Assembly (NCBI GenBank): GCA_945829235.1
Contig: CALZUA010000001.1
Span: 124,001 to 188,000 of the forward strand
Direction of reading: 5' to 3'
Length of the DNA: 64,000 bases
DNA from: an uncultured Clostridia bacterium
GTDB lineage: Bacteria > Bacillota > Clostridia > Oscillospirales > Ruminococcaceae
Positions 1,323 to 5,875 of this stretch are shown here, piece after piece. Position numbers and translations under genes: made by a program. Within the stretch, counting starts at the first letter, position 1. Every line of letters begins with the position of its first letter. The notes beneath the pieces were generated by a model, which did no database searches, was not told where the DNA came from, and saw only the letters and a list, made by a program, of their open reading frames with translations.

Positions 1323-1350
1323 ATTATAGCACCAAATTCTGAAAAGTCAA
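1323..1350 (-). promoter_or_regulatory. Promoter of the EamA gene
   Basis: Minus-strand TTGACT (1345-1350) and TATAAT (1323-1328) are separated by 16 bases, upstream of the EamA start at 1297. Confidence 0.65.
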
Positions 1351-1361
1351 GTTAAATTTAC

Positions 1362-1392
1362 AAAAAATCCGCCTTCTTGCCGAAAGCGGATT
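1362..1392 (-). terminator. Rho-independent terminator after the L7/L12-like lipoprotein gene
   Basis: Reading the minus strand, AATCCGC and GCGGATT form a stem around an 11-base loop and run directly into six T residues, just after the lipoprotein stop codon. Confidence 0.8.
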
Positions 1393-1397
1393 TCAAA

Positions 1398-1724
1398 TTA
1401 TTTGGACGGTGTAAGTTCAATCACAGCGCCGACGTTTTCAAATTTTACCTTGATTTCCTGAGCATCGTCGGTGGATTTTCCCGTTGCGATAACAACCGGA
1501 ACAGACTCGGAAAGATCCTTTGCCTCTTTGAGTCCGAGCTCGGTCAGTTCTCTGATTTCCTTGATAACTTTGATTTTTGAATTGCTGTCAAAGGAAACGA
1601 GCGTAACGTCCCAGCTTTGGATTTCCTGAACCGAGGAACTGCTGTCATCGGGCTTGTTTCCGCAACCCGTGAACGAGATAAGCGCGCCTAAAACTCCGAG
1701 AAAAGCCACTATTTTTTTCAACAT
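1398..1724 (-). CDS. Lipoprotein carrying a ribosomal L7/L12 C-terminal-like domain
   Basis: A 108-residue predicted lipoprotein: N-terminal LKK, hydrophobic segment and lipobox ending at C21 (SFTGC), then a short Ser-rich linker. Residues about 37-105 align without difficulty to the C-terminal domain of the rplL product encoded immediately upstream: by hand count 31 of 66 positions are identical, including the K-x-x-VIK and LGLKEAK segments that in real L7/L12 form the translation-factor-binding face. The N-terminal dimerisation domain and Ala-rich hinge of L7/L12 are absent. The start at 1724 has GGAG six bases upstream; an in-frame ATG at 1736 is possible. It lies 66 bases after rplL on the same strand, separated by a hairpin, so it may be read through from rplJL. 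Function unknown; it probably arose by duplication of the rplL 3' end onto a lipoprotein signal. Confidence 0.85.
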   Translation of the reverse strand: MLKKIVAFLGVLGALISFTGCGNKPDDSSSSVQEIQSWDVTLVSFDSNSKIKVIKEIRELTELGLKEAKDLSESVPVVIATGKSTDDAQEIKVKFENVGAVIELTPSK

Positions 1725-1741
1725 ATTTTTCTCCATAACAC

Positions 1742-1775
1742 AAAATCCTCCGCAGAAAAACCGCGGAGGACTTGT
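1742..1775 (-). terminator. Hairpin (partial terminator) between rplL and the lipoprotein gene
   Basis: Minus strand: TCCTCCGC and GCGGAGGA pair across a loop of about nine bases, followed by ATTTTGTGTT. The T tract is weak and interrupted, and the right arm also supplies a GGAGGA that could act as ribosome site for the next gene, so read-through seems likely. Confidence 0.6.
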
Positions 1776-1790
1776 TTTAGTTGAACGAAA

Positions 1791-2171
1791 TTACTTGAGT
1801 TCGATCTTAGCGCCTGCTTCTTCGAGCTTAGCCTTGAGTTCCTCAGCCTCAGCCTTAGCAACGCCTTCCTTGATAGCCTTAGGAGCAGCCTCAACGAGCT
1901 CCTTAGCCTCCTTAAGACCAAGACCGCAGATATCCTTAACAGCCTTGATAACAGCCATCTTAGCGTCACCGAAGGAAGCGAGAACAACGTCAAACTCGGT
2001 CTTCTCCTCAGCAGCAGCGGCACCAGCGGCAGCACCTGCAGCGGGAGCTGCTGCAACAGCGGCAGCGGATACGCCAAATTCCTCTTCGAGAGCCTTTACA
2101 AGCTCGTTAAGCTCAAGAACGGAAAGTTCTTTTACTTCGTCAATCATCTTTGTAATCTTTTCAGAAGCCAT
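1791..2171 (-). CDS. rplL: 50S ribosomal protein L7/L12
   Basis: A 126-residue protein with the complete L7/L12 layout: N-terminal dimerisation helices (about 1-35), an Ala/Pro/Gly hinge rich in AAA and AAPAAG (about 36-53), and the C-terminal factor-binding domain (55-126) with [17 protein letters not shown]. It forms the ribosomal stalk that recruits and stimulates translational GTPases. The gene follows rplJ by about 70 bases with ribosome site GGAGGT. Unlike many bacteria, rpoB does not follow; a lipoprotein gene with a copy of its C-terminal domain does. Confidence 0.98.
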
Positions 2172-2241: not shown

Positions 2242-2748
2242 TTAAGCGGATTCGCCCTGTTTTTTCTCGATTTCGCTGATAGCGATAGCAAGACGCTGAA
2301 TGGGCGACTGAAGCATAAATACAAGCTGAGAGAGCAGGGTTTCCTTGGACGGGAGCTTTGCGTAAGCCTCAACCTCTTCCTTGGAAATAGCCTTTCCGTC
2401 TACGAAACCGAGCTTGATGGAGAACTGTCCCTTGGAATCCTCAGCCTTTTTGTTGAGAACCTTAGGCGCGATGATGATGTCATCATTTGACAGCGCAATT
2501 GCTGTTGTACCCTCAAGAGCGGAATCGAGTCCCTCAATACCTGCAGCATTTAACGCACGCTTGAGCAAGGTGTTCTTAACTACGAAATAGTCAACGCCGT
2601 TGTCGCGAAGCTCTTTTCTGAGCTTGGTATCGTCTTCAACGGAGATGCCCTTATAGTCAACCAACACGCCGCCTGCCGCGTTTTTCAGCTTTTCCGTCAA
2701 TTCCTCAACGAACTGCTGCTTTTTAGCGAGAACGCTTTCACTAGGCAT
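2242..2748 (-). CDS. rplJ: 50S ribosomal protein L10
   Basis: A 168-residue L10: N-terminal rRNA-binding domain (to about 130) with the family segment VDYKGISVEDDTKLRKELRD and C-terminal helices that carry L7/L12 dimers. The start is set at the ATG at 2748, eight bases after AAGGAG; the in-frame GTG at 2757 overlaps the ribosome site and is rejected. Upstream lies the autoregulatory L10 leader. rplK and rplA are not upstream; a divergent apbE gene is. Confidence 0.97.
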   Translation of the reverse strand: MPSESVLAKKQQFVEELTEKLKNAAGGVLVDYKGISVEDDTKLRKELRDNGVDYFVVKNTLLKRALNAAGIEGLDSALEGTTAIALSNDDIIIAPKVLNKKAEDSKGQFSIKLGFVDGKAISKEEVEAYAKLPSKETLLSQLVFMLQSPIQRLAIAISEIEKKQGESA

Positions 2749-2769
2749 TTTTTTCACTCCTTACAATGA

Positions 2770-2912
2770 ATTTGCTGTCAAAAACAAAAATCCCCTCTGC
2801 AAAAAGACAGAAAGGGAGAACAGATTTCATAAAAATCAAAATCACGTTCTTCGGCAGGCGCGGCGAACCGCATTATAGAATTACTTCCACCTGCTGTCTT
2901 TAGAACAGCAAA
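2770..2912 (-). promoter_or_regulatory. Ribosomal protein L10 leader
   Basis: The 5' transcript of rplJL contains the hallmarks of the Firmicutes L10 leader: AAAGACAGCAGGTGG, then TAATTC and ATAATG, then CCTGCCGAAGAAC, which pair into the kink-turn structure bound by L10 with L7/L12. It ends in the attenuator hairpin at 2780-2817. Excess L10-L12 complex is expected to favour termination. Confidence 0.85.
2780..2817 (-). terminator. Attenuator of the L10 leader
   Basis: Minus strand: CCCTTTCTG pairs with CAGAGGG around TCTTTTTG, followed by ATTTTTGTTTTT. It lies between the leader and the rplJ ribosome site, as in other L10 leaders. Confidence 0.75.
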
Positions 2913-2915
2913 TAT

Positions 2916-2944
2916 ATTATACCACGCCAATTTAAATTTGTCAA
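2916..2944 (-). promoter_or_regulatory. rplJL promoter
   Basis: Minus-strand TTGACA (2939-2944), 17-base spacer, TATAAT (2916-2921); a perfect sigma-A promoter, back to back with the apbE promoter. Confidence 0.9.
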
Positions 2945-3022: not shown

Positions 3023-4021
3023 TTGAGAAAAATTGCGGGAATTTTGCTTGTAATGGCAACGTTTTTGTTCACCTCGTGTACAAAAGCGCCCGAAAAATCC
3101 GAGGAATATTTCTTCGCGATGGATACATATATGAAAATTGAGGCTTACGGTGAAAGCGCGGCAAATGCCGTTTCACAAGCGCGAGCGTGCGTTGAGGAAC
3201 TGGAGAAGCTTTGGTCGGCAACCGATGAAAACAGCGAGATTTACGCGATAAATCACGGCGAACCCCCCGAGCTTTCCGATGAAACCCTGGATTTGCTCTC
3301 GTTCACCCTCGAAATGTCCGCGAAAACCAACGGCGCGTTCGATGCGACAATTTACCCCGTTTTGACCGCGTGGGGTTTTACGGCAGATGAACACCGAGTT
3401 CCCGATGAAAGCGAGCTTGCCGAGTTGCTCAAAAAAGTTGGTTATGAAAAGGTTTTGGTTGACGGGAACAAAATCTTGCTGGAGCAAGGAATGATGCTGG
3501 ATTTTGGCGGTGCGGCAAAGGGCTGGGCGAGTGACGAGTGCGCCCGAATAATGCGTGAAAACGGCGTAAAATCCGCGCTGATTAACCTCGGCGGGAACGT
3601 GTACGCGCTCGGGAAGCGCGTCGATGGGAATTTGTGGAGAATCGGTGTTGCTGACCCGCTGAGCGAAAGCGCAGAAAACGCGGGAATTGTTGAGGTTTGC
3701 GACCGCGCGGTTGTCACCTCGGGCAGCTATCAGCGCTATTTCACGCAAAACGGCAAAACCTACGGTCACATCATCAACCCGAAAACCGGTTATCCCGCCG
3801 ACAACGATTTGCTCTCCGTAACAATTGTCGCCGAGGAAGGAAAGCTCTGCGACGTGCTCTCAACCGCGCTTTTTGTTATGGGCAGGGAGCAAGCCGAGCG
3901 ATTTTGGCGGGAAAACGGCGGGTTTGAGATGATTTTGATTGCTAAAAGCGGCGAGATTTTTGTTACCGCGGGGATTGCCGAGAGTTTTTCATCGGGCAAA
4001 AATGTACACATTATAAACTAA
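3023..4021 (+). CDS. apbE: FAD:protein FMN transferase (ApbE), lipoprotein
   Basis: A 332-residue ApbE-family protein that transfers FMN from FAD to Ser/Thr of membrane flavoproteins such as RnfG/RnfD or Nqr subunits. A lipobox ending at C19 anchors it outside the membrane. Family segments are in order: MDTYMKIEAYG, GAFDATIYPV, the flavin-binding LDFGGAAKGWASD, SALINLGGN, and the C-terminal VVTSGSYQRYF...HIINPKTGYP. The metal-binding Asp/Thr segment near CDVLSTALFVMG is also present. A TTG start at 3023 is chosen since GGCGGTGA lies just upstream and the promoter excludes earlier codons. The deaminase gene follows 21 bases later. Confidence 0.93.
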   Translation: MRKIAGILLVMATFLFTSCTKAPEKSEEYFFAMDTYMKIEAYGESAANAVSQARACVEELEKLWSATDENSEIYAINHGEPPELSDETLDLLSFTLEMSAKTNGAFDATIYPVLTAWGFTADEHRVPDESELAELLKKVGYEKVLVDGNKILLEQGMMLDFGGAAKGWASDECARIMRENGVKSALINLGGNVYALGKRVDGNLWRIGVADPLSESAENAGIVEVCDRAVVTSGSYQRYFTQNGKTYGHIINPKTGYPADNDLLSVTIVAEEGKLCDVLSTALFVMGREQAERFWRENGGFEMILIAKSGEIFVTAGIAESFSSGKNVHIIN

Positions 4022-4042
4022 CGCAGATTAAGGAGGCTTGCT

Positions 4043-4498
4043 ATGAACGAGTTTATGGAGCTTGCGGTAAAAGAGGCGGAAATCGGGATTGAGAACGGCG
4101 AGGGAGGACCTTTCGGGTGCGTTATCGTGAAGGACGGCGAGGTTGTCGGGCGCGGTCATAATCAGGTTGTGAAGCTGGGTGACGCTACTTGTCACGGCGA
4201 AATGATGGCAATTCGCGATGCCTGCAAAAATCTCGGCACGTTCAACCTCACGGGTTGTAAGCTGTATACCACGGGCGAGCCTTGCCCGATGTGCTTCGGA
4301 GCGATTTTGTGGGCGAATATCTCGAAGGTTTATTACGGCTGTAATGTTGAGGACACAGAGCTAATCGGCTTCCGCGACAAGCGTTTCTACGAGGACTGCG
4401 ACACGCTCAAGCAAGCGCTTTTCACCGAAACCGACCGCGCCGAGTGCCTTGAATTGTACAAAATGTACAACGCAATTCGGCGCAAAACCAACTATTGA
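4043..4498 (+). CDS. Nucleoside/guanine deaminase (CDA superfamily)
   Basis: A 151-residue zinc deaminase. The active site is complete: H51-x-E53 (CHGEMMAIRDA) and C81-P-M-C84 (EPCPMC). The usual HAE is HGE here, which is frequent among clostridial members. The C-terminal half (GCNVEDTELIGFRDKRFYED) resembles guanine deaminases such as B. subtilis GuaD rather than tRNA adenosine deaminases. It probably converts guanine or another purine base to its keto form in the cytosol. Ribosome site AAGGAGG; apparently in the apbE operon. Confidence 0.85.
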   Translation: MNEFMELAVKEAEIGIENGEGGPFGCVIVKDGEVVGRGHNQVVKLGDATCHGEMMAIRDACKNLGTFNLTGCKLYTTGEPCPMCFGAILWANISKVYYGCNVEDTELIGFRDKRFYEDCDTLKQALFTETDRAECLELYKMYNAIRRKTNY

Positions 4499-4516
4499 TT
4501 ACATAGCAGCTGAATT

Positions 4517-5875
4517 TCACGGTTCAGCCGTTTTGCTTTTGCCGAGCCTTCGGTAAACGGTGAAGTACATTGTCGTGAAGCACGCAAGCCCGCCGATTGC
4601 GTTGGAAATCGGCTCTGCGAGGAAAACTCCATCGATGCCGAAGCCGATTTGCGGGAGAAAAATCGTGAGCGGGATAACGATTATCGCCTTTCGGAGCAAC
4701 GAGAAGAAAATCGCGCGTTTTGAGTAGCCGAGTGCCTGAAAGGTTGACTGCCCCGTGAACTGAAACGCCATAAAAATGAACCCGAAAAAATAGATGTGCA
4801 ACGCGGGAACGCCTTTTTCAATCATCATCAAATCATCGGTGAACGCGGAAATCAACAGCTTCGGCGCAAGAAGCACGAAAATCCACGCAATCGCTGTATA
4901 GACAATGCCGAGGAACGCCATAAATTTTATGCCTTGCTTCACGCGGTCAAATTCGCAAGCGCCATAGTTGAAGCTGAGAACAGGCTGAGCGCCGTGCGTG
5001 ATGCCCTGAACGGGGAGGTGGAGGATATCACGAACGGAGTTGATTACCGTCATAATTCCGACGTACAAGTCGCCGCCGACGGTTTTCAAGGTCGCGTTGC
5101 ACACAACCTGAACCGCGCAGTTTGTTGCCTGCACGATAAACGCCGACAGACCGAGCGTTGTGATTTTTCCGACAAGCCGCGGGTCGATTTTCATATTTTT
5201 TCGCTCGATTTTCAGCAACGCTTTTTTACCCGTCAAAAATTTCAGCACCCAAACAGCCGATACGATTTGGCTGATAACCGTTGCAATCGCCGCGCCTTTC
5301 ACGCCCATATCAAACGCGAAAATGAACAGCGGGTCAAGAGCGAGGTTGAGAACCGCGCCGATTGCGGTTGTGAGCATTCCGATTTTGGGGAAACCCTGCG
5401 CGTTGATGAAGCCGTTCAAGCCTGTCGAGAGCATCAGAAACGGCGTTCCCACGAGGTAGATTTTGAGGTAATCATCGGCGTAGACGTAGGAATTTTCGCT
5501 TGCGCCGAACAAAAACAACACGGGTTCACGGAAAATATAGCACGCGCCAAGCAAAACAACCGAGCTTATCAACAACAGCGAAAACGTGTTCCCGAGAATT
5601 TTCCGCGCTTTTTCATCGTCCCGCGCACCGCGCGCTATTGCAAAAAGCGGAGTGCCGCCCATACCGAAAAGGTTGGTGAAAGCCGCGATAAGCGTTGTTA
5701 TCGGGAAAACCAGCCCGATTCCCGTGAGCGCCATACTGTCCGCCACGGGCAGGTGACCGATGTAAATTCTATCGACAACATTGTACAGCAGTTGCGTAAT
5801 CTGCGCCAAAACCAGCGGAATTGCCTGCGAAATAATGTTCTTTTTCACCGAGCCTTTTGAAAAATCGTTTGCCAT
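4517..5875 (-). CDS. MATE family efflux transporter
   Basis: A 452-residue protein with twelve predicted membrane segments in two homologous halves, opening with SQAIPLVLAQITQLLYNVVDRIYIGHLPVAD, the typical MATE N-terminus. Members export cationic drugs or metabolites by Na+ or H+ antiport. Substrate not predictable. It is convergent with the deaminase and has its own promoter at 5908-5936, back to back with the KAP gene promoter. Confidence 0.95.
   Translation of the reverse strand: MANDFSKGSVKKNIISQAIPLVLAQITQLLYNVVDRIYIGHLPVADSMALTGIGLVFPITTLIAAFTNLFGMGGTPLFAIARGARDDEKARKILGNTFSLLLISSVVLLGACYIFREPVLFLFGASENSYVYADDYLKIYLVGTPFLMLSTGLNGFINAQGFPKIGMLTTAIGAVLNLALDPLFIFAFDMGVKGAAIATVISQIVSAVWVLKFLTGKKALLKIERKNMKIDPRLVGKITTLGLSAFIVQATNCAVQVVCNATLKTVGGDLYVGIMTVINSVRDILHLPVQGITHGAQPVLSFNYGACEFDRVKQGIKFMAFLGIVYTAIAWIFVLLAPKLLISAFTDDLMMIEKGVPALHIYFFGFIFMAFQFTGQSTFQALGYSKRAIFFSLLRKAIIVIPLTIFLPQIGFGIDGVFLAEPISNAIGGLACFTTMYFTVYRRLGKSKTAEP

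Follow-up and report, generated by a model that had tools for sequence, protein, structure and literature searches.

How a domain of the ribosomal stalk protein bL12 comes to be carried by a predicted lipoprotein, and what it may do there, is the question raised by a small gene on the minus strand of the window, the whole stretch of 64,000 nucleotides that was analysed. The gene, labelled lpp (1398..1724, minus strand), encodes 108 amino acids made up of a signal, a linker and an L12 C-terminal domain. Its single open frame runs from 1398 to 1736 (minus strand) and contains ATG codons at 1736 and 1724, the former being the alternative start. The start at 1724 appears the likelier, because the relative G018 is without the upstream ATG and an AAGGAG/TGGAG-like ribosome site stands a few bases before the MLKK/MKQ start in all three species that carry the gene. 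The likely ribosome-binding site for this start is GGAG at 1731..1734 (minus strand) in the window and AAGGAG or TGGAG in the orthologues. The carriers are the window's own genome (G000) and the relatives G018 and G031; the nearest relative without lpp is G001.

The Ribosomal_L12 C-terminal domain was assigned to 1413..1610 (minus strand) from PF00542, the AlphaFold model and matches to solved sequences. The earlier note on this DNA had aligned the C-terminus of lpp to the same domain of L7/L12 with about 31 of 66 identities, had claimed that the dimerisation domain and hinge were gone, and had proposed a profile search and a structure prediction. The measured alignment to the adjacent L7/L12 gave 32 of 72 aligned residues identical and 47 of 72 similar (E 5e-17). 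In the profile search, PF00542 matched residues 39-104 of the 108-residue protein over model positions 2-66 of 67 (E 1.1e-22), and residues 43-108 of the 112-residue form (E 1.2e-22, 80.4 bits, cut-off 25.9). The dimerisation profile PF16320 matched the neighbouring rplL and gave no match to lpp up to E 1; signal and linker stand in the place of the dimerisation domain and hinge. The bL12 equivalog TIGR00855 scored lpp at 65.4 bits, which is below its cut-off of 84.4. The AlphaFold model built with 24 aligned rows showed the order E-H-H-E-H-E (strand 38-45, helices 47-61 and 65-73, strand 77-83, helix 85-97, strand 100-106) with a block-mean pLDDT of 91-94 over residues 41-100. With the three orthologues only, the same order of elements was obtained at a mean pLDDT of 67.5; the signal and linker were modelled without confidence. 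With an E threshold of 0.01, lpp matched 18 solved sequences, each of them L7/L12 or mitochondrial L12. These results are in accordance with the earlier description of the domain.

The N-terminus, as read from the sequence, has a positive start with KK, a hydrophobic stretch, SFTG directly before C21, and then the linker. The signal peptide with its predicted lipid-attachment Cys21 (MLKKIVAFLGVLGALISFTG followed by the Cys) was placed at 1662..1724 (minus strand) from the sequence, the FTGCGNK motif and a pattern control. All three orthologues have a positive n-region and an identical FTGCGNK, and each has a type II signal with lipobox Cys as judged by sequence and pattern; the lipobox reported earlier was thus recovered. 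A comparable lipobox pattern arose in 5 of 20000 codon-shuffled versions of lpp, the pattern having been written post hoc, after the sequence was seen. Phe at the -3 position of a lipobox is allowed, though it is not the commonest residue. The genome also encodes a signal peptidase II (PF01252, 122.5 bits, cut-off 25). A donor of the signal peptide was sought by exact pattern only, and the FTGCGNK codon pattern occurred once in the genome, in lpp itself.

The genes preceding lpp were then considered for its expression. They are rplL, encoding bL12 (1791..2171, minus strand; PF00542 and PF16320, TIGR00855 158 bits against 84.4), and rplJ, encoding uL10 (2242..2757, minus strand; taken from the list of open reading frames and named from its position and the L10 leader). 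An L10 leader, the autoregulatory leader of the rplJL operon (RF00557), lies at 2776..2921 (minus strand; 57.5 bits, gathering score 44), and a promoter-like TTGACA-17-TATAAT at 2916..2944 (minus strand; 12 of 12 matches) overlaps its first 6 modelled bases. In Bacillus subtilis, attenuation at this leader is described as dependent on L10(L12)4 (PMC4538822). The leader was found upstream of rplJ in all three carriers and in G001, and no sigma-70-type promoter-like site was found on the coding strand of the rplL-lpp gap in any of the three carriers. For these reasons the co-transcription of lpp with rplJ and rplL is regarded as probable.

The gap itself contains a hairpin with a short T-tract (1743..1773, minus strand), which the earlier note had called weak. 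Folding revealed a strong structure instead, with 13 pairs in the window and -26.3 kcal/mol (z -5.2) for the 71-nt segment. The hairpin is near-identical in sequence in the three carriers, where the segments fold at -26.3, -20.4 and -22.8 kcal/mol and 0, 1 and 1 of 200 shuffles, respectively, were as good. A terminator pattern scan lists it in G000 and G031 and not in G018, while folding shows it in all three. After it, in the carriers, come four to five T and then an interruption; the corresponding hairpin of G001 runs into seven T. We read the hairpin of the carriers as a leaky terminator, which would pass part of the transcripts. Another hairpin runs into T's after the lpp stop (1364..1394, minus strand; -18.3 kcal/mol, z -5.0) and is a probable terminator; it was folded in the window only, and the pattern scan lists none after lpp in the three carriers. 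The lysine codon AAG makes up 4 of 12 lysine codons in lpp, 16 of 17 in rplL and 14 of 22 in rplJ, and this departure of lpp from rplL fits a lower expression of lpp. The co-regulation with ribosome synthesis suggested earlier therefore survives as probable co-transcription, given the leader and the gap without a sigma-70-type site, but not with the weak hairpin on which it had leaned. Past the lpp terminator a separate promoter-like site was observed (1323-1350, minus strand; 11 of 12 matches, extended TG), which points at the gene that we take to be EamA-like and is also present in G018 and G031.

Full-length relatives of lpp are encoded in G018 (76% identical) and G031 (70% identical). The gene order there is that of the window, with rplJ, rplL and lpp followed by the presumed EamA-like and TSUP-like genes, so that the rplL-lipoprotein pair, for which the earlier note had proposed a search of related genomes, recurs at the same place in two of them. 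The neighbours seen in common to all three carriers are rplJ, rplL, the EamA-like gene and a gene that we take to be ApbE-like, and these only. By rplJ identity to the window, G031 (98%) and G018 (95%) are the two nearest genomes and G001 (92%) is the next; G001 has no lpp copy and has a different gene behind rplL, as read by eye from the downstream sequence. Among 43 genomes of the genus lpp was found in 3, and in 4 the search returned no match of any kind; the absences rest on searches except that in G001, and with some assemblies 69-90% complete absence is not certain in each. An rplJ match was present in 39 of the 43. The dN/dS of lpp for the three pairs was 0.16, 0.16 and 0.27 by NG86 and 0.24, 0.23 and 0.38 by YN00, ratios that are rough owing to the high dS (0.56-1.16, NG86). 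The NG86 ratios of the neighbours were 0.03-0.14 for rplL and 0.05-0.09 for rplJ, and the dN of lpp was 0.15-0.19 compared to 0.03-0.04 for the neighbouring EamA-like gene. The length of the protein varies among the three in a 10-residue linker stretch and one N-terminal residue and nowhere else. From the low dN/dS and the near-constant length across three species, lpp is judged to be constrained but evolving much faster than its neighbours, and by these measures it is a real, young and lineage-specific gene.

The best explanation of these observations, to which we give somewhat better than an even chance, is that lpp encodes a lipoprotein of the envelope in which the L12 fold serves anew as a binding module, and that it is expressed by read-through within the rplJL operon, under the control of the L10 leader. 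The precursor would be exported, acylated on Cys21 and anchored to the cytoplasmic membrane on its outer side, and the L12 fold would then no longer lie beside the ribosome. The gene would follow rplJ and rplL as a minor third cistron of their operon, reached by read-through of the conserved terminator-like hairpin, and the L10 leader would thus govern it in parallel with the synthesis of the ribosome stalk. The domain, small, stable and alpha/beta in fold, would bind a putative envelope partner and would not serve as a dock for translation factors. This explanation is supported by the complete L12 C-terminal domain without L12_N and its pLDDT, by the n-region with FTGCGNK, by the signal peptidase II, by the purifying selection seen in dN/dS and by the operon signs, namely the leader, the hairpins and the gap without a sigma-70-type site. 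The export of an L12 C-terminal domain is further supported by a probably exported cohesin/dockerin/L12 protein in the same family (G243). Against it, the gap hairpin may stop most transcripts, which together with the occurrence of lpp in so few genomes of the genus and its fast evolution would suit a short-lived by-product, scarcely expressed and being lost. We consider a by-product very improbable, the frame being open in all three species with dN/dS below 0.4 by both methods, and the signal, lipobox, domain and ribosome-binding site being kept.

The envelope-lipoprotein explanation has also to be weighed on the translation-factor-binding face, whose residues were numbered by E. coli bL12 as set from the GANK65 motif (PMC6110070). 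K65, V68, I69, K70, L80, E82, A83, K84 and P91 are kept in all three lpp copies, K95 is replaced by Ala and K100 by Thr in all three, and R73, G79 and K81, present in the window and G018 copies, are missing from the G031 copy. The retained face of the earlier note thus holds for the window and G018, but not for G031, nor at positions 95 and 100 of any copy. According to one study (PMC9239087), a helix binding IF2, EF-Tu, EF-G and RF3 carries K81, K84 and K100, and K81 and K84 are important in subunit association with IF2. The kept K65, K70 and K84 would suit continued factor binding as well, and the domain might still bind translational GTPases: an uncleaved or slowly exported precursor would hold EF-Tu, EF-G or IF2 at the inner membrane face, or the mature lipoprotein would bind a surface elongation factor. 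V68, I69 and L80 in all three copies, R73, G79, K81 and K84 in the window and G018, and the role of K81 and K84 with IF2 point in this direction, but the signal peptide with its positive n-region and lipobox predicts export, and the replacements and the losses in G031 amount to a drift of the face that supports an envelope role. Because the face is retained in part and stands together with an export signal, continued factor binding by lpp is possible but not likely, and a GTPase-holding role is given a low probability. A similarly low probability is given to the view that lpp is a surface-recruited factor-binding domain whose synthesis is wired to ribosome-stalk production by the L10 leader and the leaky terminator, the envelope serving as a growth-rate readout or as a surface dock for an exported elongation factor. 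An envelope partner is more likely than translation factors as the ligand of lpp.

The source of the domain was analysed separately. The earlier note had proposed a duplication of the rplL 3' end; the rival is that the domain came from the L12 of another family, by horizontal transfer or as an older paralogue, and landed behind rplL, which concerns the origin only and is compatible with the envelope-lipoprotein explanation. The first loop of lpp reads SFDSNSK against SFGDAK in its own rplL, the extra residue being shared with the L12 of families f14 and f20 of the order, and the stretch IKVIKEIRELT resembles the L12 of the same two families and differs from that of its own rplL. Both the loop residue and the IKVIKEIREL stretch argue for another family. 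In a careful tree of 107 domains and 68 columns, lpp stands on a branch of 1.17 in an unresolved fork that also holds own-family rplL, and the own-family rows are nearest to it by path, which counts against the rival. In a thinned set of 84 domains, lpp with own-family rplL obtained a p-AU of 0.58 and lpp with f14 a p-AU of 0.67, neither being rejected. The thinned quick tree split own-family rplL from lpp (95.7) and placed lpp with f14 and f20 at a support of only 47. The tree with lpp held to f14 was 10.4 log units above the free quick tree and that with lpp held to own-family rplL 4.8, and the free tree, being worse than both, is a poor guide. With own-family rplL split from lpp in the thinned tree and a higher likelihood for lpp with f14, the data appear to lean slightly away from the adjacent rplL, and an origin in another family is given slightly less than an even chance. 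The duplication proposed earlier keeps the p-AU of own-family rplL in its favour, but has against it the f14/f20-like loop and the p-AU of f14, the trees being split.

The distribution of lipoproteins with an L12 domain was searched more widely. A scan of the genome-contig collection with the single lpp protein found no relative. With the three-row lpp alignment the scan gave 79 loci, among which only L092 and L093, belonging to the known two species, are lipoproteins; the other 77 were taken as rplL (70 by a motif test; L097, L105, L121, L133, L150, L152 and L156 by eye). In the order sample a full-length lpp match was present in 2 of 394 genomes among the matches listed, G018 not having been drawn; the matches were listed best first and the best 12 candidates scored for many genomes, so a divergent copy could escape. 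The lpp alignment matched twice in G000, in G031 and in a further 13 order genomes. In these 13 and G061, the extra Pfam hits were a MORN protein (G061), an LGT (G090), a zinc-ribbon protein (G206) and a cohesin-dockerin protein (G243); the extra match in G265 and G272 is a second rplL-like frame, as seen from score and frame length only, and the other eight gave no second Pfam hit. In the family sample, 11 of 297 genomes had more than one PF00542 match by our own reading, G000, G031 and G243 among them, and the extra hits in the other eight, read by eye, are not lipoproteins. Of the plasmid records 61 matched, and the 25 listed were annotated as rplL or had no annotation there; no plasmid record covered 80% of the query. 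Of the phages 34 matched, and among the 25 listed the annotation was rplL or L7/L12, rIIB-like, other or none; here too no record reached 80% of the query. A full-text literature search, judged by titles and the starts of abstracts and with most subscription journals outside its scope, gave no paper on an L12-domain lipoprotein. Within the samples searched, the lipoprotein form of the L12 domain was seen in these three species alone.

In this order L12 C-terminal domains recur outside bL12, and lpp fits such a mobile class, being a C-terminal domain without L12_N that is joined to another module. In the window's own genome a zinc-ribbon/L12 protein is encoded on another contig (L003:1381-2112; G000:C3:104958-105161; PF13240 and PF00542 over cut-off), where it adjoins a further protein whose start resembles a zinc ribbon. 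Four genus genomes encode MORN-repeat proteins that end in an L12 domain (L038:1727-2494 and L037:1932-2669, confirmed by Pfam; L039:928-1716 and L189, by eye). In G090 a prolipoprotein diacylglyceryl transferase (LGT; L196:651-2009) is extended by a long charged tail with an L12 C-terminal domain at its end; the fusion is present in 1 of 3 genomes of the family of G090, and the assembly concerned has 7% contamination. L206, L207 and L208 (G546, G613 and G442, genus g177) encode membrane proteins that are multi-pass as judged by eye and have an L12 domain at the C-terminus, in all three g177 genomes seen in the family sample. The G243 protein (L195:2265-3875 and 3921-5057) spans two adjacent open frames, read separately, of which the upstream one has a signal-like start; it combines BspA-like repeats and two cohesin stretches with a dockerin and, at the C-terminus, an L12 domain. 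A Pectobacterium phage rIIB-like protein with an internal L12 domain was also found (L194:2084-4183).

Mobile L12 domains being already known, the new feature is the predicted export of one by a lipoprotein signal; the non-ribosomal L12 domains of phages and of this order of bacteria thereby gain a member predicted to be exported. The locus offers a case, open to dating, in which a ribosomal domain has left the ribosome and apparently also the cell, since three sister species have lpp and G001, next in relatedness, has a different gene there. As the three copies differ in how far the face has drifted, the time of loss of a ribosomal interaction surface becomes measurable.

Compared to bL12, lpp is alike in the full-length PF00542 domain, in the E-H-H-E-H-E order of the model and in several face residues; it differs in having a lipoprotein signal instead of the dimerisation domain and hinge, in its PSK tail and in a first loop one residue longer than that of its own rplL. 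Phage proteins with an embedded bL12 domain were described by Mizuno et al. in 2019, among them a 724-aa protein of Erwinia phage Ea9-2 (PMC6375957). As far as the available part of that paper goes, the domain has likewise moved into unrelated proteins and is present or absent among homologues, but ribosome incorporation and translation-factor interfaces are discussed there, and not lipoproteins. The zinc-ribbon, MORN, LGT and multi-pass proteins resemble lpp in carrying the C-terminal domain without L12_N on another module; unlike lpp they are presumably cytoplasmic or cytoplasm-facing, and by coordinates none of their genes adjoins an rplL match (G008 has no rplL match). The cohesin/dockerin/L12 protein of G243 is large and multidomain, with no lipobox seen, a weaker L12 match (32.3 bits) and a contig other than that of rplL, but like lpp it carries the L12 C-terminal domain on a probably exported protein.
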